Source: Pantoea cypripedii (GTDB lineage Bacteria; Pseudomonadota; Gammaproteobacteria; Enterobacterales; Enterobacteriaceae). Taken from it: DNA of 64,000 nucleotides. Position numbers and translations under genes: made by a program. Positions within the stretch are counted from its first letter, which is position 1. Each line of letters starts with the position of its first letter. The stretch lies in NCBI RefSeq assembly GCF_002095535.1, contig NZ_MLJI01000003.1, positions 581,494-645,493 on the forward strand, read 5' to 3'. Under the pieces are notes generated by a model, which saw nothing but the letters and a program-made list of their open reading frames with translations, did not search any database and was not told the DNA's origin. Of the stretch, positions 27,763 to 55,250 are shown in pieces.

Positions 27763-27777
27763 CTGATTACAGTGAAC
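27763..27777 (-). repeat. Stray iteron copy far from the plasmid origin
   Basis: CTGATTACAGTGAAC, identical to the plasmid iteron core, lies alone between the FUSC and ssuA genes about 7 kb left of the iteron field. It could bind RepA or reflect past recombination. The rest of 27615-27879 is AT-rich promoter DNA for the two divergent genes. Confidence 0.75.
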
Positions 27778-29078: not shown

Positions 29079-30062
29079 TCAGGCGGTCGCTACGTAATTT
29101 TCATCCCACTTCATCCGGGTTTTCAGCACGCCGAAGCACTGATGAACCAGCTTTCGCATCACCGCCCCCAGCGCGGCCTTTTTCGCTTTCCCTTTCGCCA
29201 GTAATCTCTCATACAGCGCTCTGGCCGGACCGTTCCACTTCGACGCCACCACCGCAGCCATATACAGTTTCGCCCTCACATCCGCCGGGCCCGTTTTGGA
29301 CATCCGCGCAAGCCCCCTCACGTAACTTCCCGATGTCTTCTCTACTGGCACCACCCCCAGCCACGATGCGACCTGCGACGCACTGCGGAACGGGCACGAG
29401 TGCAGCACTGCCAGCATCGTCGTTCCCACCACGCTGCCTATTCCTTTTATCGATTCCAGCAGCTCACGGTCCTCTTTCAGCCCCGGATGATTATCCGTGT
29501 GGTCTGAAATGAGGGCTTCAATACGCTTCAGTTCTTCCTCATTCGCTTTCCGGGTTCTCGTCAGGGAGTCGATGACCTCCCGTGACGTCCGGGTTGAATG
29601 GGCTTTTTCCAGCCGGTTTACTGCCCGCTGCACATCCGCCTGAAGCGAGTCCCGCAGGCGCATCAGTTCCCGCAGCTTACGCACTTCAGGTGACGGTGGT
29701 ACCCACGCATCGGGCTGTTTCAGCTCACCGTAACGGGCCAGCACCCAGGCATCGGCGGTATCATTCTTGGTGAGCATACCGATCCCACGGGCAAATTCCC
29801 TGACCCGCTGAGGATTCCCCATGCAGACCGTGACGGGGGTGTTTTCATGCAGCCCGAACGCCACATTCTCGTGGTAGACACTGGTGGCTTCCAGCACCGC
29901 GGTAACCTGTTCAGGCGGGCACTTCTGCATGAGGAGCCAGTCGTATATCTCACGCTCCGCACCGGGCTGGTTCTTCATGGATTTGGTTTTCTTTTTGCCG
30001 TTGCCGGGTAACAGGCAGAGGTCAAGTTTGTTTTTACTGACATCAATACCGAGATAAATCAT
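29079..30062 (-). CDS. IS110-family transposase (DEDD recombinase)
   Basis: 327 residues from ATG 30062, which gives the usual N-terminus MIYLGIDVSKNKLDLCL with Asp7 of the RuvC-like DEDD site; a longer start at 30092 is possible. Further acidic residues include the Glu of AVLEATSVYHE and the Asp pair of KNDTADAWVLARY. The C-terminal Transposase_20 domain follows (IKGIGSVVGTTMLAVL, then SASQVASWLGVVP with the nucleophilic Ser). The gene appears intact. These enzymes cut and join DNA guided by an RNA from the element's own non-coding end. Confidence 0.93.
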   Translation of the reverse strand: MIYLGIDVSKNKLDLCLLPGNGKKKTKSMKNQPGAEREIYDWLLMQKCPPEQVTAVLEATSVYHENVAFGLHENTPVTVCMGNPQRVREFARGIGMLTKNDTADAWVLARYGELKQPDAWVPPSPEVRKLRELMRLRDSLQADVQRAVNRLEKAHSTRTSREVIDSLTRTRKANEEELKRIEALISDHTDNHPGLKEDRELLESIKGIGSVVGTTMLAVLHSCPFRSASQVASWLGVVPVEKTSGSYVRGLARMSKTGPADVRAKLYMAAVVASKWNGPARALYERLLAKGKAKKAALGAVMRKLVHQCFGVLKTRMKWDENYVATA

Positions 30063-30257
30063 CAGATAACTCCCTTTCACATGAACCATCACGCCATCTT
30101 GCCTTGTACATACGAAGTCAGAGCTTCTGGTTACCGTTCAGAGTAGATGCTGGCGTGAAAGGAGAAACGGAGGGCTTAAACTACGATGCAGGATTTTCTC
30201 CTGAGCGGCGCGACAAGCTTCCTCCGTTTCCTGTTACTGGTAGCTAACCAGCAACAG
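30063..30257 (-). ncRNA. Candidate bridge RNA leader of the IS110-family element
   Basis: The 200-base region 5' of the transposase is strongly structured. GAAACGGAGG (30165-30174) pairs perfectly with CCTCCGTTTC (30221-30230), extended by GCTT/AAGC across a small bulge, enclosing a loop of about 40 bases. A second hairpin, CTGTTaCTGGT with ACCAGcAACAG, lies at 30231-30257. IS110-group elements encode a bridge RNA in the 5' non-coding end. Position, size and folding fit; the loop that would read the REP target was not resolved. Inference only. Confidence 0.45.
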
Positions 30258-31971: not shown

Positions 31972-32036
31972 CGCCTTTTCCCCATTGCCTGTATGCATTT
32001 CCTATATAACTTTAATAAAAGATGAACAGATGAAAG

Positions 32037-32059
32037 TTATCCACTTTTTCTGTGGATAA
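32037..32059. promoter_or_regulatory. DnaA-box dyad
   Basis: TTATCCAC and GTGGATAA face each other across a T-rich 7-base gap. On the minus strand TTATCCACA (32051-32059) is a perfect DnaA box. It sits between parS and the FAD/NAD(P) gene. It may bind DnaA or be a hairpin near the oxidoreductase promoter. Confidence 0.55.
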
Positions 32060-32127
32060 ATCGTTGCATATCATCTGGCTAATTTTAGCCAGTATTTATG
32101 ATGGCGTTACGGCAGGGTGCATCCATG

Positions 32128-32411
32128 TGGCGATTTCACCCTGAAATCCTTTTCTAAAAATCATTATATTCATAGAGATAGGCGTGAAATCGGCGTGGCG
32201 AGCTTTATAATTTTCCGACCAGTACGAATGCGGGCAATCATAATTTAGTGGATTGTTGCCTTCACAGAGGGATGGTTAATTTGCCGTCACCGGTTGTGTT
32301 CATTGATCGGAAGGATTGCCCGTGATGAGTGAAATCATGGCGATTTCAGCCTGAAATTTTAGGCCTCATTACTGATATTTCATGCAGTTAGCGGTGAAAT
32401 TACGCTGGCGA
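32128..32411. other. parS: parS centromere region, P1 type
   Basis: Downstream of parB lies a cluster of the two box types used by P1 ParB: heptamers ATTTCAC/GTGAAAT (32133-32139, 32184-32190, 32329-32335, 32394-32400, plus variants at 32343 and 32377) and hexamers TGGCGA/TCGCCA (32128, 32196, 32338, 32406). Two palindromes ATTTCA-SCC-TGAAAT are included (32133-32147 and 32343-32357). The spacing differs from P1, with a bare stretch of about 125 bases between the two halves, where IHF could bend the DNA. Confidence 0.8.
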
Positions 32412-32423
32412 AGGAAAAGGAGG

Positions 32424-32447
32424 TAAAAAAAACCGCCCGAAGGCGGC
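32424..32447 (-). terminator. Rho-independent terminator after parB
   Basis: On the minus strand GCCGCC-TTCG-GGCGGT is followed by eight T residues, starting six bases after the parB stop. A textbook intrinsic terminator for the parAB operon. Confidence 0.92.
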
Positions 32448-32452
32448 ATTGC

Positions 32453-33424
32453 TCATTGATTGAGGTATTTGTTCAGGGTCTCGTTAATCACCCGATCCAA
32501 CTCGTCCTGGAGTTCTTTTGACTGTCGATTAAATTCATAGCTGAACATGCGACCACGCGTCTTTTTACGTGCAAAGCGGTCTTTGTCGGCAAAGGTCCAG
32601 AGCGCGGTGGCGACGACTTTATCTTTAGCGGGTGACTGCACCAGCGTCTGGCTGCCATTACGCACCAGACGCAGAATTCCATTCTTCACTTCATCTTCCG
32701 CTAATCCATCTCTGGCACAAACGGTATCAACATCCATACCAATGGCATCAATCAGCGCATCAACCGTCTGACCCGTCTCCTGCAGCTTCTCATAAGCCTG
32801 CAACAGAGATTTATAATCGGGATAGGTCAGCTCTGAGTGGTTAGGGAATAACGTGATGAGATCGGCAGGCACACTGGCCGCCTGCAATGCGCGTGTCACT
32901 TTGGCCTGAGAAAGACCTTCGCTCTGGGCAATTTCTTTTTGCGACAAACCACCATCTTTCAGCGCCAGCAGACGCATGCCAACCTCACGCAGGTTGTGTT
33001 CACGGGCAGTCTGAATATCCTGTGCCAGACGACGGGCTTCTTCTGCCGTGATTGAGGCGTCAGTAACCAGAACATCAAGACCTGTTTTACAATGCAGCGC
33101 AGCAGCACGGCGGCGTGAACCATCGAGAATCTCGATACGGTCATCACGCTTGACGCCAATAGCCGGAAAGAACTGCTGGAGTTTGATGGTACGGATAATG
33201 TCGCGCAGTGATTCGGGTGTCAGACCTGATTGGTCACGGCCGTTGGTTTCCATCACCACAAAGGTTTTATCTTCGATATCTTTTGCTGCAATGTGCTCCA
33301 GTGTGAACTGGGCGCGTTTACCGGTGGACAGGATAAAAGTCTGGGTATGGCCTTCTGATGTTTCTTCTGTTTGCAGCGGTGTCTGGCTGAAAGTTCTGCC
33401 AATCGTTATGCGTTTTGCGCTCAT
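32453..33424 (-). CDS. parB: Plasmid partition protein ParB, P1 type
   Basis: 323 residues, similar to the 333 of P1 ParB. A central helix-turn-helix (GLSQKEIAQSEGLSQAKVTR at about residues 160-180) binds the heptamer boxes and a C-terminal dimer domain (about 270-323) binds the hexamer boxes; both box types are present just downstream. The N-terminal part holds the ParA-interaction and spreading region, including the basic GSRRRAA motif. It starts seven bases after the parA stop and ends before a strong terminator. It acts with ParA to segregate the plasmid. Confidence 0.95.
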   Translation of the reverse strand: MSAKRITIGRTFSQTPLQTEETSEGHTQTFILSTGKRAQFTLEHIAAKDIEDKTFVVMETNGRDQSGLTPESLRDIIRTIKLQQFFPAIGVKRDDRIEILDGSRRRAAALHCKTGLDVLVTDASITAEEARRLAQDIQTAREHNLREVGMRLLALKDGGLSQKEIAQSEGLSQAKVTRALQAASVPADLITLFPNHSELTYPDYKSLLQAYEKLQETGQTVDALIDAIGMDVDTVCARDGLAEDEVKNGILRLVRNGSQTLVQSPAKDKVVATALWTFADKDRFARKKTRGRMFSYEFNRQSKELQDELDRVINETLNKYLNQ

Positions 33425-33431
33425 AGTAACC

Positions 33432-34631
33432 TCAGTTCAGGCGAATAAATTCAATGCGGTCAAACACGGCTTTGGCAAAATCCTCCGCAGCCGAACGCGC
33501 ATTCTTCAGGGCTTCACTGCTGCCTACATAGGTAGAAGGATTGGCCGAAATTACAGTGTCAAACGACTCTCCGCAGCGCTCAAAACCATCAAGCCTTGGT
33601 AAGGCGGCATCCAGCATGTCACCGCCAAAAATCTCTTTAGCAAGGCTGTGGCAGAGTTTGTGGTCAGCTTTGTTGGAGAGCTTCGACATAAATCCAATAT
33701 TGCCCTGTAAACGACAACTTGCGCCGGATTCTTCAATGATGCCAATCAGCTCTGGCAGACGCGTCAGATACTTCAAAGTGGAGTGAAAATCGACCTGTGC
33801 CGGGGGAACTGGCGTCATCAGCAAATCAGATGCGGCAATGGCGTTTTTCAGGAATGCGTCGAGGTGAGGGCCACTGTCGATAAAGATGAAGTCATAATCT
33901 TTCTTCAGTTTGGCGATAACATTATCGTGCAATACAGAATGGACATTATGCTGAGGCAGATGCTCGGCACAAAGCTCATCCCAGCGTGAAGCGATAAACG
34001 CATCATCGATGGAAGCGGGCAGCACATCCACACCAGGAATAATAGAAGGAACGATAAATTCGTTCAGCAATTCTTCGCGGCTGACATTCTGCAACATCGC
34101 CTGTGCCGCGGTGGCTTCAACTAATCCCACTGAACGCTCATGATTGAGGAACATGGTTGCGGAAGATTGCGGGTCAAGATCGATAACCAGAATGCGTAAA
34201 TCTTCAAATAACAGGTGTGGATGTGCGCGCAGCGCGTGGGCCAGCGAAACGGTTGATACCGTTTTCGATACGCCACCTTTCAGGTTACCAACAAATAACG
34301 TGAATGCATCACCGTGACGATCACGGTACTTGGGCACACCACGATGGTGATAGATGTCGATAATGTTCTGAATCGACATTGCATATTTGGTTGAGCTACC
34401 GGCGGCACGCTTATCAAACGGATAACCGTTTTCTTCCATCTCATTCACAGCATAATCGACACTGGCGCGCGTCAGCTTGGGTAACTTTGCCAGTGCCGCT
34501 TTAGCGTAAACCTGGTAAAAAGTATTTTCCTGCAACTCTTCTTTTTGTGCCTGGATCTGTTCCGTCAGGCTCATGAGCATTTTCTCAGAACGTTGAGCGA
34601 CCTTCAGAACCTGCTTTTCATCGTTAGCCAT
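33432..34631 (-). CDS. parA: Plasmid partition ATPase ParA, P1 type
   Basis: 399 residues (P1 ParA has 398). The first 100 or so residues form the DNA-binding domain typical of type Ia ParA. The deviant Walker A is GNLKGGVSKTVSTVSLAHAL, Walker A' is LVIDLDPQSSATMF and Walker B is FIFIDSGPHLD. ATG 34631 follows GGAGCAACT; an alternative 15 bases upstream is weaker. The protein moves plasmids over the nucleoid and also represses its own operon through an operator upstream. Confidence 0.96.
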   Translation of the reverse strand: MANDEKQVLKVAQRSEKMLMSLTEQIQAQKEELQENTFYQVYAKAALAKLPKLTRASVDYAVNEMEENGYPFDKRAAGSSTKYAMSIQNIIDIYHHRGVPKYRDRHGDAFTLFVGNLKGGVSKTVSTVSLAHALRAHPHLLFEDLRILVIDLDPQSSATMFLNHERSVGLVEATAAQAMLQNVSREELLNEFIVPSIIPGVDVLPASIDDAFIASRWDELCAEHLPQHNVHSVLHDNVIAKLKKDYDFIFIDSGPHLDAFLKNAIAASDLLMTPVPPAQVDFHSTLKYLTRLPELIGIIEESGASCRLQGNIGFMSKLSNKADHKLCHSLAKEIFGGDMLDAALPRLDGFERCGESFDTVISANPSTYVGSSEALKNARSAAEDFAKAVFDRIEFIRLN

Positions 34632-34648
34632 AGTTGCTCCACACATGT

Positions 34649-34676
34649 AGGATTTATGACTTTATACCGAAATCCT
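34649..34676 (-). promoter_or_regulatory. Candidate parAB operator
   Basis: AGGATTT and AAATCCT form a 7-base inverted repeat with a 14-base centre, 18 bases before the parA start, where the ParA autoregulatory operator lies in P1-like systems. Confidence 0.55.
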
Positions 34677-34882
34677 GCACATCAGGCAAATATATCTCAT
34701 TTACTCAGAAACAACTGATGTGAACGAAACACCTTGTCCAGGAGGATGTTATTACAAACATTCACTGTAATCAGTGCGGCAATCCTGAGCAGCCGGATGA
34801 AATGAATAAAAGATGAGCTGATCATTTTTCGAGCTAACCTGCCAGAATTCACTGTAATCAGTAGTGGCGTGAGTAAAAGTAC

Positions 34883-34938
34883 GGAGCAGGGAGCAGGGAG
34901 CAGGGAGCAGGGAGCAGGGAGCAGGGAGCAGGGAGCAG
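34883..34938 (+). repeat. GGAGCAG tandem repeat (8 copies)
   Basis: Eight perfect head-to-tail copies of a 7-base unit inside the iteron field, flanked by iterons at 34848 and 34945. A seven-base unit open in all frames is an artefactual source of coding frames; I see no gene. The copy number probably varies between isolates. Confidence 0.95.
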
Positions 34939-36478
34939 GGAAGATTCACTGTAGTCAGCAAGCTTTACAAGCAACGCGGGCATAAACCCACTGTAGTCGG
35001 CAAAAGATTCACTGTAATCAGCAAGCCATCACTAAACATTCACTGTAATCAGTAACCGCATCTACACGGATAAGCTAACGATAGCCTGTTTAACACCGGC
35101 TGAAGGGACAAAATCATTCACTGTAATCAGTAAAAGAGAACCCCATTCTGGTTTTCCGTCAAACATTCACTGTAATCAGCAGTCGCAATTTGCGAAATCC
35201 ATAATCGTTCACTGTAGTCAGTAAGACAATTCTCCGCCCACCTCAAATGTTCACTGTAGTAAGTAAGCCAAATTTCCCGGCATCCGGAAACGTTCACTGT
35301 AGTGAGCAACCCTGGTTATATAACCCGCAGGTGTTCACTATAGTCAGTACAAGGTGTCATCAAATCGGCAAACATTCACTGTAATCAGTCGCTGCTTTCG
35401 TACTCCGATCAACCATCATCTGTCCCTGACTGATGCTTTTACCGCGATAAAAAATCAAAACATTCACTGTAGTCAGCAAGATTGAGAGCGCACTTCAGAG
35501 GATTTTCCATGCGTTACGTACCTCAGGCCGAATCAGCAACATTCACTGTAATCAGTGGAGGGTATGCGGACGTATTACGTCAGCAGTTCTCCGGGAGCGG
35601 GAACTGGCGTGAGCTCAACAGTGAGAATCGGACGTTCACTGTAATCAGTAAGTGGTATCCATAAGGAAGAAGTTAAACATTCACTGTAATCAGCAGAGGG
35701 GGATCAACAGAAGTGAAATGTTCACTGTAATCAGCAACGGACCACACAAAGTCGATGATGGCTAGTAAGCAGCGATATCCCAAATTCACTGTAATCAGTA
35801 AGAGGTCATGTTAACGCCTGAGCCGAACATTCACTGTAGTCAGTACCCGGTCACACACAACCCCACTGGCGATGTTCACTGTAGTTAGTAGAAACGAACA
35901 TCGGCAGCCGCTGACCTCTGTATATCAACAGCTGAAACAGAAGATTCACTGTAATCAGTGACACCGTGACGTTAGCAGTGAAAGGCTTAACCCATGCTAT
36001 CAGGTGCCAATCTGGTGTTCACTGGAGTCAGTAACCGGGGTAAATATTCACTGTAATCGGCAAACGTGACCAACCCTGTCACTTTTTTGTTCCTGAAAAT
36101 ACGTGAGATGCTGATTACAGTGAACATAATGGCTATCAATTCAATAAGACATTGAAAATCATATACATATAACAAAACACCCACTGTAATCAGTAAGTTC
36201 ATCACAACGTAAGCATTCACTGTAATCAGTGGGGACGTACGAGTTGATAGCGTTCACTGTAATCAGCAAAAACCCCTCGGATACTCATCTTTTAACGATG
36301 AAAACAATAAATGTAAGCACTCACTATCAATTTATAACAATGAATACTGTATCTGGCAGCAATAATATGGATTATGGTTTTGTGATCACAGGCAGGAATG
36401 CTGATTACAGTGAACGTTACTGATTGCAGTGAATCTGATAGGCGCTAGCTGATTACAGTGAATGTCTGAAGGGAGGGA

Positions 36479-36507
36479 AGTGTCACTTTTCGGCTAAAAG
36501 TGACACT
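36479..36507 (-). terminator. Large hairpin downstream of repA
   Basis: AGTGTCACTTTT and AAAAGTGACACT form a perfect 12-base-pair stem with loop CGGCT, 39 bases after the repA stop and between two reverse iterons. It may end the repA message or serve as a protein-binding dyad. Confidence 0.6.
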
Positions 36508-36545
36508 GCAACGCGTGATGTACTGATTACAGTGAACATGATGAC

Positions 36546-37475
36546 TTAGTCGTCAAAATCCAGATCGTCGAGTGCATCAATGCTCTCAAGATTGCTGATC
36601 CCATCCAGTTTTGGTGTCCGGCTGTGGATAATAAAAAACACAGAACGACCACGTTTCACTTCTGAATAGTCGAGATAACCAATCTCTTTCAGTTGCTCCA
36701 TGGCACGGCGTACCACATGGTTCTGGGTGGTGGTTTTTGAACCCAGGTTGAGGCGCATACGCAGACGAGCCAGTGATATAGGAGCAGGGTTTGTTGGCAG
36801 GCTCTCCAGATAGGTATAAAGCGCCTGAGCAGATTCCTTACGCTTAAGCCGCGAGATGGCGCGGAGCTGCAGCAAAACCTTATGGTCAAAGTTATACAAC
36901 TCGAACAGTTTAGGATCCGCCTGAATCTGCACCACATCCTTTTCACGATCGTAATAGGCCGATTGTACCAGGTGGGTATGATAGGCTTTGCCGTTACCTT
37001 CAAAGGAGAGGGTATTGGTCGCGATACGACGTAATGAGGCATCTAAACGCTTACGTAAGGCCGCAGAGGAGTTTGCCGAGGGGATCCCGCACATTTTTAC
37101 GAAATCGATAAACGGCAGCGTCACCGTGTCGCCTTTCGACGGATAACGGGAGAATGACTGAATGATCCCGGCCCAGGTTTTGAAATCATTATCCATATCC
37201 AGCCTTGCGCCGGTAATGGTAATCTTTTCATAGCCTTCAGCTTTAACCAGTGACAGGTTTTTCAGCTCTTTCGTGGCATCGGTTGAAGCCATCGCGCCAG
37301 ATTTACCGCGCGCGGTGGATTTCAGTGTCGGAACAAACAGTCCCAGGCGCATCAAGGCGACCGGTTGTACGGTGTTATTTTTGTTAGGGTGGAGCTGAAT
37401 AACTTCACCGCTGTTTTTTGTCACCGACAGAAAAGGTTCAAGTAACGCCTTGTTTTCACTCTCTTTATCTGCCAT
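36546..37475 (-). CDS. repA: Replication initiator RepA, P1/RepFIB type
   Basis: 309 residues with two winged-helix domains of the Rep_3 family. The block [17 protein letters not shown] and the later [29 protein letters not shown] and [11 protein letters not shown] match P1 RepA closely, as I recall it; the N-terminus is longer and the C-terminus ends in an acidic tail. Monomers bind the iterons to open the origin, dimers couple iterons and repress. Five phased iterons lie just upstream of the start and overlap the promoter region, so autoregulation is expected. Confidence 0.96.
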
Positions 37476-37515
37476 AGCCTGAGATCTTCATTCTGTGGAT
37501 GAAAAGGGTCGGTTT

Positions 37516-37733
37516 CTGATTACAGTGAACATTAACACTGTTTATAGTGAACATTCTACTGCTTACAGTGAATATAATGCTGATTACAGTGAACACTTTG
37601 CTGATTATAGTGAACACGATCACCTTCTCAGCCCTTGTCCGGTGCGGCCTGCGACGATCGGGGATCTCTTTGGATCTCTTTTAGATCTCTCTATGATCTT
37701 TCTTAGAGATCTAATCACTGTATAACTGGATAA
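37516..37733 (-). other. oriR: Replication origin (P1 oriR layout)
   Basis: Reading away from repA there are five iterons at 37516, 37538, 37559, 37580 and 37601 with 21-22 base spacing (two helix turns, same face), a short GC-rich block, six GATC sites at 37656, 37663, 37673, 37684, 37695 and 37708 within GATCTCTT-like repeats, and two tandem DnaA-like boxes on the minus strand (TTATACAGT 37717-37725, TTATCCAGT 37725-37733). This is the element order of P1 oriR, where Dam sites mark the melting region. The remaining DNA to 37951 has nothing I recognise beyond the promoter for the next gene. Confidence 0.88.
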
Positions 37734-37951
37734 CTCTTTGAAAAACCCAGTCAGAACGTGGAATAAAGCACGATCGGGAATAAAACACCGCCAACTGCAT
37801 ATTCAGGATCCTGACATTAGCCGCACGCAAGTTAGATCCCTGTACGTTCTTCTACTGAGAACAACTTTGTCATTAATATTCATTTTTCAACAATTCAACC
37901 ACGGCGTATGGTAAGCCTCATTGACGACACAAACTCACGATGAAGGTTGTT

Positions 37952-39328
37952 ATGACTGAAAATGTAATCTCACGTAACCCCACCAGCGGTGAAATCCTGG
38001 CAACGTATCCGCTGCAAACGCCTGCTGAACTGGAAAAAGCGCTGCAACAAAGTGCACATGCTTTCAACCAGTGGCGTAACACAACATTGGAGCAGCGCGT
38101 GCTGGTTCTGCGCCAATTAGCAGAACAGATCCGTCAGCGTCAGGATGAGCTGTCCGCGATGGCGACACTGGAAATGGGTAAACCTATTGCTCAGGCTCGC
38201 GCTGAAGTACTGAAATGCGCCAACCTGTGTGACTGGTATGCTGAACAAGGCCCGGCGATGCTGGCTGACAAACCGACGCTGGTGGAAAATCAACAGGCAT
38301 GGCAGGCATTTCGTCCGCTTGGTGTGATCCTTGCGGTCATGCCGTGGAACTTCCCTTACTGGCAGGTACTGCGTGGCGCAGTCAGCATGTTACTGGCAGG
38401 AAATACTTACCTGCTAAAACATGCCCCAAGCGTGATGGGCTGTGCCAACCTGATCACCAGCCTGTTTGATGCGACCGACCTGCCGAAAGGCGCTTTCAAC
38501 GTCATCAATGTTGATAACGATGGTGTCTCGGTGGCGATAAAAGATCCGCGCGTTGCGGCGATTGCCGTTACCGGCAGCGTACGTGCAGGCGGTGCGATCG
38601 CCGCACAAGCGGGTGCCGCACTGAAGAAAACCGTACTGGAACTGGGTGGTGCCGATCCTTTTATCGTTCTCGCCGATGCAGATCTGGACGCCGCAGTGGC
38701 TTCAGCGGTCACAGGACGCTACCAGAACACCGGACAGGTGTGTATGGCAGCCAAACGGTTCATCATTGAAGAAAGCGTCGCAGAAGCGTTTGAGGCGCGT
38801 TTTAGCGCAGCGGTGCAGGCACTGAAAATCGGTGATCCACTGGATGAAGCAACCTATATCGGTCCGATGGCCCGTTACGATCTGCGTGATGAACTGGATA
38901 AGCAGGTGCAACAGAGCATTGCCGAGGGTGCGCGTCTGGTTATTGGTGGTCATAAGATCGAAGGTGTGGGTAACTACTATGCGCCGACGATCCTGGCAGA
39001 TGTCACACCGGAAATGACAGCATTCCAGCAGGAGATCTTTGGCCCGGTTGCCGCGATCACCATTGCTCGTAACGCAGAGCATGCATTAGAACTGGCAAAT
39101 AACAGCGAGTTTGGCCTTAGCGCTACCGTGTGGAGCGGCAATGAAGCCGTTGCGGCGGAACTGGCCAGCAAACTGGAAACCGGTGCAGTCTTCATCAACG
39201 GCAACGGTGCTTCCGATCCGCGCGTAGCGATTGGCGGCGTGAAGAAAAGTGGTTATGGCCGCGAGTTGTCAAGCTTTGGTGTTTACGAGTTCTGTAATAT
39301 CCAGACTGTCTGGAAAAATCGTCGCTAA
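37952..39328 (+). CDS. sad: NAD(P)+-dependent succinate semialdehyde dehydrogenase, Sad/YneI type
   Basis: 458 residues from ATG 37952 (AAGG five bases upstream; ATG 37940 is an alternative). Long blocks match E. coli Sad: ANLCDWYAEQGPAML, MPWNFPYWQVLRGAV, Glu230 in LELGGADPF and nucleophile Cys264 in GQVCMAAKRF. It oxidises succinate semialdehyde to succinate, linking GABA or aromatic breakdown to the TCA cycle. It lies right beside the origin and is not part of the nicotinate route, whose end product is fumarate. Confidence 0.93.
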   Translation: MTENVISRNPTSGEILATYPLQTPAELEKALQQSAHAFNQWRNTTLEQRVLVLRQLAEQIRQRQDELSAMATLEMGKPIAQARAEVLKCANLCDWYAEQGPAMLADKPTLVENQQAWQAFRPLGVILAVMPWNFPYWQVLRGAVSMLLAGNTYLLKHAPSVMGCANLITSLFDATDLPKGAFNVINVDNDGVSVAIKDPRVAAIAVTGSVRAGGAIAAQAGAALKKTVLELGGADPFIVLADADLDAAVASAVTGRYQNTGQVCMAAKRFIIEESVAEAFEARFSAAVQALKIGDPLDEATYIGPMARYDLRDELDKQVQQSIAEGARLVIGGHKIEGVGNYYAPTILADVTPEMTAFQQEIFGPVAAITIARNAEHALELANNSEFGLSATVWSGNEAVAAELASKLETGAVFINGNGASDPRVAIGGVKKSGYGRELSSFGVYEFCNIQTVWKNRR

Positions 39329-54283: not shown

Positions 54284-55250
54284 TTGCCTCGCGCGGCTGA
54301 CTGCCCGCCTGCCGGTCTGCGTCATCGGTGCGGCGGTGGTTGATGTGATTGCCGATGCTTATTCGCTGCCGCATCGTGGCAGCGATATTGAGTTGCAGCA
54401 GCAGGGCGTCAATGTGGGGGGGTGTGCCCTGAACGTGGCGATTGCCTTGCATCGGCTTGGCATTCCGTCGCTCAATGCGTTGCCGCTGGGCAAGGGGGTG
54501 TGGGCCGGGATCGTGCGCCAGAAGCTGGCAGAATATGGCATCGAAAGCGTTCTCGAAACCGCGTCAGGTGATAACGGCTGGTGTCTGGCGCTGGTGGAGC
54601 CGGATGGCGAACGTACCTTTCTTTCGGTCAGCGGCGTCGAAAATCAGTGGGACGCGGCGCTGCTCGATGCCTTGCCACAACCGGAACATCGCTGGATCTA
54701 TCTGTCGGGGTATCAGCTCACCAGCAAAAGTGGCGAGGTGTTGATTAACTGGCTGGAGCGCCAGACGGCACCTTATCAGCTGCTGGTGGATTTCGGCCCG
54801 CGGCTGGCGGACATCGCGGATGCTGATTTTGCGCGCATCATGGCACTGAAACCACTGATTACAGTGAACAGGCAGGAGGCGGAACTGCTGTGGCGGGAGC
54901 GACTGGGCGCAGCGGAAATCTTTGATGCGCACAGCCTGTTGACGCGCTGGCAGCAACGGTTTGGCAGTGCGATGGTGGTGCGGCTCGACAGCGACGGCGC
55001 GGGCTATAGCGATGGCATGACCCAGGGCTGGATTCCGGCACTGGTCACCACCGTGGTAGACACCATTGGCGCAGGCGACAGCCATGCAGGTGGTTTACTG
55101 GCCGGGCTGGCTTCCGGCTGGTCACTGGCTGACAGCGTTGCACTCGGCAATGCGGTGGCGTCTTATGTGGTGTCGCAGCGCGGCGGTGATTGTGCGCCGG
55201 ATCGCGCGACGCTGGCGGCTTACTGGCAGCAGCGGCTTACTCCGCAATAA
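54270..55250 (+). CDS. yegV: PfkB/ribokinase-family sugar kinase YegV
   Basis: 326 residues (E. coli YegV has 321). PfkB marks: GGCALNVAIALHRLG in the substrate region and DTIGAGDSHAGGLLAGL with the catalytic Asp and anion hole. It probably phosphorylates the sugar or nucleoside freed by YegU. GAGG precedes ATG 54270, which lies inside the end of yegU. The coding sequence contains an exact plasmid iteron core at 54854. It overlaps the convergent yegW by 14 bases. Confidence 0.92.
   Translation: MLTPDCLARLTARLPVCVIGAAVVDVIADAYSLPHRGSDIELQQQGVNVGGCALNVAIALHRLGIPSLNALPLGKGVWAGIVRQKLAEYGIESVLETASGDNGWCLALVEPDGERTFLSVSGVENQWDAALLDALPQPEHRWIYLSGYQLTSKSGEVLINWLERQTAPYQLLVDFGPRLADIADADFARIMALKPLITVNRQEAELLWRERLGAAEIFDAHSLLTRWQQRFGSAMVVRLDSDGAGYSDGMTQGWIPALVTTVVDTIGAGDSHAGGLLAGLASGWSLADSVALGNAVASYVVSQRGGDCAPDRATLAAYWQQRLTPQ
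54854..54868 (-). repeat. Stray iteron copy inside yegV
   Basis: CTGATTACAGTGAAC, a perfect iteron core, encodes part of KPLITVNRQEA in the kinase. It is 17 kb from the origin and could bind RepA, or be a chance match favoured by a common codon run. Confidence 0.7.

Follow-up and report, generated by a model that had tools for sequence, protein, structure and literature searches.

What do some 30 copies of a single initiator-type site do in the DNA between repA and parA of a large Pantoea plasmid? The locus lies in the window (the whole stretch analysed, which is the last 64 kb of the 645,493-bp contig C3 of a three-contig, 6.55-Mb genome). We give a probability of roughly 0.7 to the reading that this array is an enlarged incA-type negative control locus of the LPP-1 replicon, a replicon of the P1/RepFIB kind, which would titrate RepA and handcuff the origin. 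RepA binding, titration, handcuffing, the effect on copy number and the reason for the enlargement are what we infer; the sites themselves are observed to be under purifying selection.

The replicon and its origin

The RepA and ParAB encoded in the window are those of large Pantoea plasmids, and on this basis the window is assigned to a Pantoea megaplasmid of the LPP-1 type. The name LPP-1 comes from the literature: the title of PMC3505739 calls this large Pantoea plasmid universal, and the paper gives repA and parAB among its core genes. The window's genome and that of At-9b (plasmid pPAT9B01) belong to one genus. Features of the locus are collected in Table 1.

Table 1. Features of the replicon, the array and the lone sites in the window
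Feature	Position	Strand	Basis
repA, Rep3 initiator, 309 aa	36546..37475	-	PF01051, PF21205; 97-99.7% identity to RepA of large Pantoea plasmids
Origin, five iterons in 21-22 bp steps, upstream of repA	37516..37614	-	Site scan
AT-rich stretch with six GATC sites	37656..37711		Sequence; Dam sites then incC iterons likewise ordered in the P1 record
Downstream (incA-position) array, 32 RepA-type iterons, 27 in + and 5 in -	34761..36536		Site scan
repA-proximal group of four iterons, oriented as origin iterons (36401, 36420, 36449, 36523)	36401..36536	-	Site scan
parA, HTH_54 + AAA_31; probable start about 34631	33432..34646	-	Pfam domains
parB	32453..33424	-	Pfam PF08775
Probable parS, ATTTCAC/ATTTCAG and TCGCCA boxes downstream of parB	32128..32405	-	Read by eye
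Satellite iteron, exact, between FUSC-family gene and sulfonate-binding protein gene	27763..27776	-	Site scan, relatives
Satellite iteron, exact, inside PfkB-family kinase coding sequence	54855..54868	-	Site scan; name from annotated relatives

The RepA encoded here carries Rep3_N and Rep3_C domains (WH1 and WH2), with E-values of 2.4e-12 and 9.3e-06, each above cut-off. It had been called P1-like from the letters alone, and this was upheld, since 85% of the query aligns to the RepA of P1 at 49% identity; SSU5-type (68%) and RepFIB-type (about 60-65%) proteins are nearer. At least 5,000 plasmid records match it, with 3,974 of 5,000 among the matches listed at 60-80% identity. Two of the five origin iterons are exact copies, and the adjoining AT-rich stretch is likely the unwinding and Dam-methylation region. 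By its initiator domains and its tandem iterons beside an AT-rich, GATC-rich region, the locus is classed as a Rep3 iteron replicon of the P1/RepFIB type. A scan for exact TTWTNCACA DnaA boxes found none between repA and position 37950; the whole window has three such matches against 3.57 expected.

The order of origin iterons, repA, array, parA and parB is that of P1, and the placement of the array at the matching incA locus, between repA and parA, agrees with what the sequence-only reading had proposed. The probable start of parA is taken from the 1200-bp length of the gene in annotated relatives. The probable parS was recognised by ATTTCAC/TCGCCA boxes, whose letters we take to be those of P1-type parS. 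A P1-like parS is described on an LPP-1 plasmid in PMC10999674. Between the parAB side and the lone site at 27763 lies an IS110-family transposase gene (29079-30092).

The array and selection on its sites

A scan with TTCACTGTAATCAG at up to two mismatches found 31 sites in the 1.78 kb between repA and parA, 19 of them exact, while ten first-order Markov sequences of the region yielded a mean of 0.0. A 32nd, degenerate copy (4 mismatches) lies at 34987, where At-9b has a site with one mismatch at the corresponding place, so that the count of about 32 made from the sequence alone proved right. The site of 15-16 bases described in that reading is real, but the conserved unit is longer, about 18-20 bp, and consists of RTTCACTGTARTCAGYAA with an AAC-like lead. 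The orientation flip noted near repA was found as described: the four repA-proximal sites, and a lone one at 36111, face opposite to the remaining 27. The array is also without genes, as had been claimed, since no ORF of at least 60 aa inside it is longer than 77 aa and a scan of 32000-38000 gave no Rfam hit at the gathering score. Repeat families in the region gave no good match extending past the iteron. The array iterons differ in sequence from the ParB-box-like sequences, which sit downstream of parB.

Three other elements of this DNA were recorded. A microsatellite with a 7-bp unit, GGAGCAG, is present in eight copies at 34883-34938, within the array. The palindrome AGTGTCACTTTT-5-AAAAGTGACACT (36479-36507), a candidate terminator or operator, separates two of the repA-proximal iterons; of 17 loci checked, 8 contain a stem of the same sequence with 9 or more pairs. 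A promoter scan gave 6 promoter-like sites, at the chance level of 6.1, and 7 terminator-like sites were found against 2.5 expected, an excess that comes partly from the iterons' own inner symmetry.

RepA loci were obtained by scanning genome contigs, and 45 of the best 80 among 131 (L009-L052 and L058) were classed as LPP-1 type by RepA identity of at least 80%. Without eight truncated or reduced loci (L026, L046-L052), and with the window and At-9b included, there were 39 usable loci. L026 is cut within the array and L047 ends 10 bp past repA and is not countable; L046 is a 42-kb contig with 6 sites within three mismatches, on which no parA was found, and L106, a 508-kb plasmid from an assembly of the same organism name, has 24. 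L025 begins at repA without the origin and is absent from the comparison of origin and array sites below.

Comparison of site count and spacing across related plasmids had been suggested when the array was first read. Between repA and parA, the 39 LPP-1 loci have 12-31 sites at up to three mismatches, and most have three to five origin-oriented sites beside repA with the rest mainly reversed. Sites were 73-99% and spacers 45-97% identical over 17 pairwise comparisons. MAFFT aligns repeats unaided where spacers are near 50% identity, and the case for selection therefore rests on pairs with 72-83% spacer identity and on the excess of shared sites over shuffled controls. Three such pairs have sites far better kept than spacers: L017/L022 (96% vs. 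72%), L025/L022 (95% vs. 73%) and L013/L014 (99% vs. 83%). The window (31 sites) and At-9b (30) share 29 sites in register, compared with a mean of 22.5 and a maximum of 25 in 15 spacer shuffles. In 8 pairs with 15 shuffles each, the repeats alone shared 13-23 positions on average, and the observed number exceeded every shuffle in all 8, narrowly in two (23 vs. 22 and 19 vs. 18). These results show purifying selection on the array sites. That the copies might be assembly duplicates, an outcome the sequence-only reading had set against itself, is excluded, as related species keep the sites in register although the spacers have diverged; the array is not an assembly artefact, because 39 loci carry 12-31 sites and the sites outlast their spacers in three pairs.

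The spacing between sites gave a different result. Interval lengths are stable across relatives (148, 37, 36 and 69 bp in both the window and At-9b, whose spacings are near-identical throughout), but they are no better kept than other intergenic DNA: the indel/substitution ratio of the L108/L110 array is 0.033, within the range of 0.006-0.109 for eight other intergenic comparisons on the same plasmids, some of which contain an origin, a probable parS or a satellite site and are themselves under some constraint. Selection on spacing or geometry was consequently dropped. Many intervals had been read as 40-45 bases, close to four helix turns. Nine of 30 do fall at 40-46 bp, but the helix-turn argument is weak, as the window array by itself shows no significant 10.5-bp phasing (R = 0.18); in the pooled 39 loci, 429 of 764 intervals (same orientation, 15-60 bp) show it with R = 0.31, a periodicity inflated by the ancestry that the loci share. 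Helical phasing was dropped as an argument on both counts.

The same iteron word is found in the origin and in the array. In 37 of 39 loci, origin iterons are further than array iterons from the 14-mer consensus. Mismatches average 1.48 in the origin, 0.50 in reversed array sites and 0.59 in repA-proximal sites; the consensus derives mostly from array sites, and mismatch serves as a proxy for affinity. With that proxy, the weaker origin match agrees with array sites filling before origin sites.

The exact iteron is present in 56 of 60 genomes of the genus. Six genomes have at most one exact site (G007, G018, G037, G040, G043 and G044), and RepA identity exceeds 66% in none of these; two small genomes whose RepA is of LPP-1 type have few, with 2 in G051 (1.4 Mb, RepA 88%) and 7 in G014 (2.4 Mb, RepA 95%). 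The reduced symbiont plasmids L048-L052 keep origin iterons and have downstream a single site each at three mismatches, or 0-1 at two, in the 2.5 kb examined (1.06 kb only in L049); a coarse search over 3.5 kb of their AT-rich DNA picked up at most 7 matches, which were scattered. Loss of the array in symbionts may reflect the general decay of AT-rich reduced genomes.

Array size and lone sites around the array

Site number was compared with replicon size in complete plasmids. At two mismatches, 20 sites were counted in plasmids of 235, 286, 455 and 530 kb, 24 in those of 508, 744 and 779 kb, and 26 in one of 729 kb; at three mismatches, plasmids of 548, 794 and 927 kb have 21, 30 and 28, respectively. 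Plasmid size as the cause of site count was not retained, as there is a trend only: a count of 20 is found at 235 kb and again at 530 kb, and the large plasmids are relatives of one another. A coarse search of 34 of the 35 non-LPP-1 loci (all but L071) found several contigs of 58-335 kb with 12-17 sites, which places LPP-1 at the high end of a range; it detected no downstream site in 8 of the 34, in some of them through seed failure or a contig end. On contig C2 of the window's genome, a 1.4-Mb replicon, four other Rep3 initiators (L149-L152) are 36-67% identical to this RepA. Each has its own iteron word, with roughly 5, 11, 15 and 22 downstream sites in the coarse search, a sign that LPP-1 is probably not alone in having large arrays.

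Lone copies of the iteron, here called satellites, are new to this analysis, as is their clustering around the array and the presence of one inside a PfkB-family gene. Exact matches to TTCACTGTARTCAG were listed in full for 22 of the 60 genomes, including two without an array (G018 and G044). The 20 array-bearing contigs (8.53 Mb) carry 38 exact sites outside the array and origin, one to five per contig, at places that vary between lineages; the group of G002, G011 and G012 has three to five. None of the 38 is more than 25 kb from the array, compared with 6.8 expected within that distance under a uniform distribution. The parA side has 31 and the origin side 7, and 29 of the 38 share the orientation of the origin. 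Several are orthologous, and by our reading the independent places number about eight.

Two satellite places fall in the window, and a third, in another species group, is beside a sugar-porter gene. The gap between the FUSC-family and sulfonate-binding genes was compared in ten sequences (the window, At-9b and eight more), five of which had been picked for having the site, while the window, At-9b and L108-L110 had not. Site columns were invariant at 13 of 14 positions, against 43 of 203 in the flanks. L106 has both genes, but the DNA between them contains no site at up to two mismatches. In the PfkB-family gene, the codons CCA CTG ATT ACA GTG AAC are invariant in all 15 loci where the gene was found (14 distinct sequences), while of the 201 codons whose amino acid is invariant no more than 18 keep the same codon throughout. 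Just 3 of 93 amino-acid-invariant four-codon windows are fully codon-invariant, the number that the six-codon block supplies. A site was the reason for fetching L116, L120 and L127 but not the other 12 loci; as the species share ancestry, these are not 14 independent tests.

The remaining contigs of these 20 genomes, about 96 Mb in sum, contain 18 exact matches. Of 13 whose surroundings were inspected, 10 lie within ORFs and 3 on a mobile-looking element, and no intergenic chromosomal site shared among these 13 presented itself as a crtS-like trigger. Those within ORFs include L098, L100, L102 and L103, on large chromosome-like contigs; by eye, the ORFs are a putative selB in the window's genome and putative phage-like genes elsewhere. 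The three remaining matches (L099:1478, L101:1475 and L133:1471) are exact LPP-1 iterons in three genomes, beside the same conserved gene, which has no Pfam match; in L101 a DUF2857 gene is located upstream, and the L099 site is also covered by a 153-aa ORF on the opposite strand. The near flanks of L133 differ from those of L099 and L101 while the site is identical, and a mobile element carrying or exploiting the RepA site might be involved.

These sites also bear on a broader proposal, to which we hold tentatively and at less than even odds: a distributed system in which a conserved array of ~20-32 sites, together with selected satellites within ~20 kb on both sides, mostly origin-oriented and one set in PfkB-family codons, would count RepA and would fold the origin region or keep it silent, limiting a plasmid of nearly a megabase to one firing per cell cycle.

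Function of the array

In the titration and handcuffing reading, RepA made from repA would bind the array sites, which are closer to consensus than the five origin sites; we infer this binding from the identity of array and origin iterons and from the selection on the sites. Free RepA would reach the origin only once most array sites were filled, and array-bound RepA could also pair with the origin. As the array is 1-3 kb from the origin, it would be copied right after initiation, and the doubled sites would soak up free RepA. More sites would mean more RepA counted per cycle and less noise, which would suit a replicon of 0.2-0.9 Mb held near one copy.

A toy titration model, whose parameters were free, was adjusted to bring starts close to one per generation (0.89-1.04 obtained). 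It gave variances of 3.24, 1.75, 1.08, 0.80 and 0.43 for 6, 9, 20, 31 and 60 sites; with zero sites it could not be tuned. Cycles without a start fell from 0.589 at 6 sites to 0.298 at 31. The fraction with two or more starts hardly changed (0.241 vs. 0.243), and the model therefore gives no support for a better block to re-initiation. The gain it suggests is fewer missed cycles and fewer runaway cycles, which speaks to plausibility and is not proof.

The P1 record runs from a DnaA site through Dam sites, five incC iterons, repA, incA, parA and parB to ParB sites, and numbers the incC copies 10-14, which implies nine at incA, as the sequence-only reading had stated; our seed search recovered 7 of the 9 downstream sites. 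P1 incA lowers copy number and causes incompatibility. P1 resembles LPP-1 in the order from origin iterons through repA, downstream iterons, parA and parB to ParB sites, in a Dam-site cluster beside the origin iterons, and in two downstream orientation groups of which the first faces like the origin. It differs in having nine sites in 285 bp rather than 32 in 1.78 kb, in its iteron word, and in an annotated DnaA site beside the Dam sites where the window origin has no exact TTWTNCACA. We know of no satellite sites in P1. Like the array, datA consists of clustered initiator sites that would keep the pool of free initiator down; unlike the array, it is chromosomal, lies far from oriC and acts on DnaA. 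The locus is named in a review of Vibrio cholerae chromosome 2 (PMC6090056).

RepFIB plasmids (F, pO157 and relatives, with iterons E to J/K) share with LPP-1 a Rep3 RepA of about 60-65% identity, upstream origin iterons and a downstream block, which in RepFIB has a control and incompatibility function (PMC11983097). Downstream iterons alone displaced a plasmid there, and upstream ones did not (PMC11983097). In two RepFIB records the block has 7 and 6 sites within two mismatches, the iteron word differs from that of LPP-1, and an integrase gene, not parAB, follows repA. The low copy number, RepA sink and origin pairing suggested for the array from its sequence would fit these RepFIB data.

Chromosome 2 of V. 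cholerae is likewise a second large replicon with an iteron-type initiator, and its ori2-inc region, with inhibitory sites by the origin and a small number of sites farther away, of which some lie within genes, can be likened to LPP-1 (PMC6090056, PMC11711613). Titration and handcuffing are both discussed in PMC6090056, along with a distal titration cluster of six RctB sites in 74 kb, 40 kb from ori2. Sites are few in V. cholerae, a separate 29/39-mer inhibitory type exists, and the iterons contain GATC, whereas LPP-1 has one site type. V. cholerae also has crtS, for which no LPP-1 counterpart was identified among the 13 of 18 off-contig exact matches inspected.

Handcuffing alone, with many bound RepA molecules bridging to the origin and titration unimportant, is favoured by the RepFIB authors for a downstream block acting on the origin (PMC11983097), and the two orientation groups of the array resemble P1 incA. 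It leaves the keeping of some 30 separate sites unexplained, and the indel/substitution ratio lends no support to a rigid bridge geometry; we regard handcuffing by itself as unlikely. More doubtful still is a RepA-bound domain organiser, in which array and satellites would fold ~20 kb on each side of the origin to aid segregation or origin silencing. The confinement of all 38 lone sites to within 25 kb on 20 contigs, their prevailing origin orientation and the synonymous conservation of the pfkB site argue for it; against it, satellites number one to five per contig at places that differ between lineages, partition has its own probable parS, and mutation of three prominent distal RctB sites in V. 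cholerae had minimal effect on chromosome 2 replication, with a weak effect for one of the three (PMC11711613).

A partition (centromere-like) or parA-regulatory array might be suggested by the adjoining parA, whose ORF is about 115 bp from the last iteron, yet the iterons carry the origin word and not ParB boxes, and the probable P1-type parS lies downstream of parB, which makes this reading very improbable. Slighter again is the chance of a non-functional repeat expansion or an assembly duplication: high copy number and the microsatellite within the array could be taken that way, but conservation in register over diverging spacers in separate assemblies, and repeat families that do not extend well past the iteron, argue strongly against it.

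Among open-access titles and the starts of abstracts we found no description of the array and nothing on LPP-1 copy-number control; the word 'iteron' is absent from the main text of PMC3505739.

LPP-1 plasmids occur across the genus Pantoea at 0.2-0.9 Mb. Over diverged species, replicons of this kind form a natural series in site number, from 0-1 in reduced symbiont plasmids through 6-9 in RepFIB and P1 to 12-32 in LPP-1, which makes the role of extra iterons, titration or handcuffing, directly testable. If true, the preservation of initiator sites in coding sequence would suggest a control of plasmid replication that is not limited to the origin, a question already raised for chromosome 2 of Vibrio.
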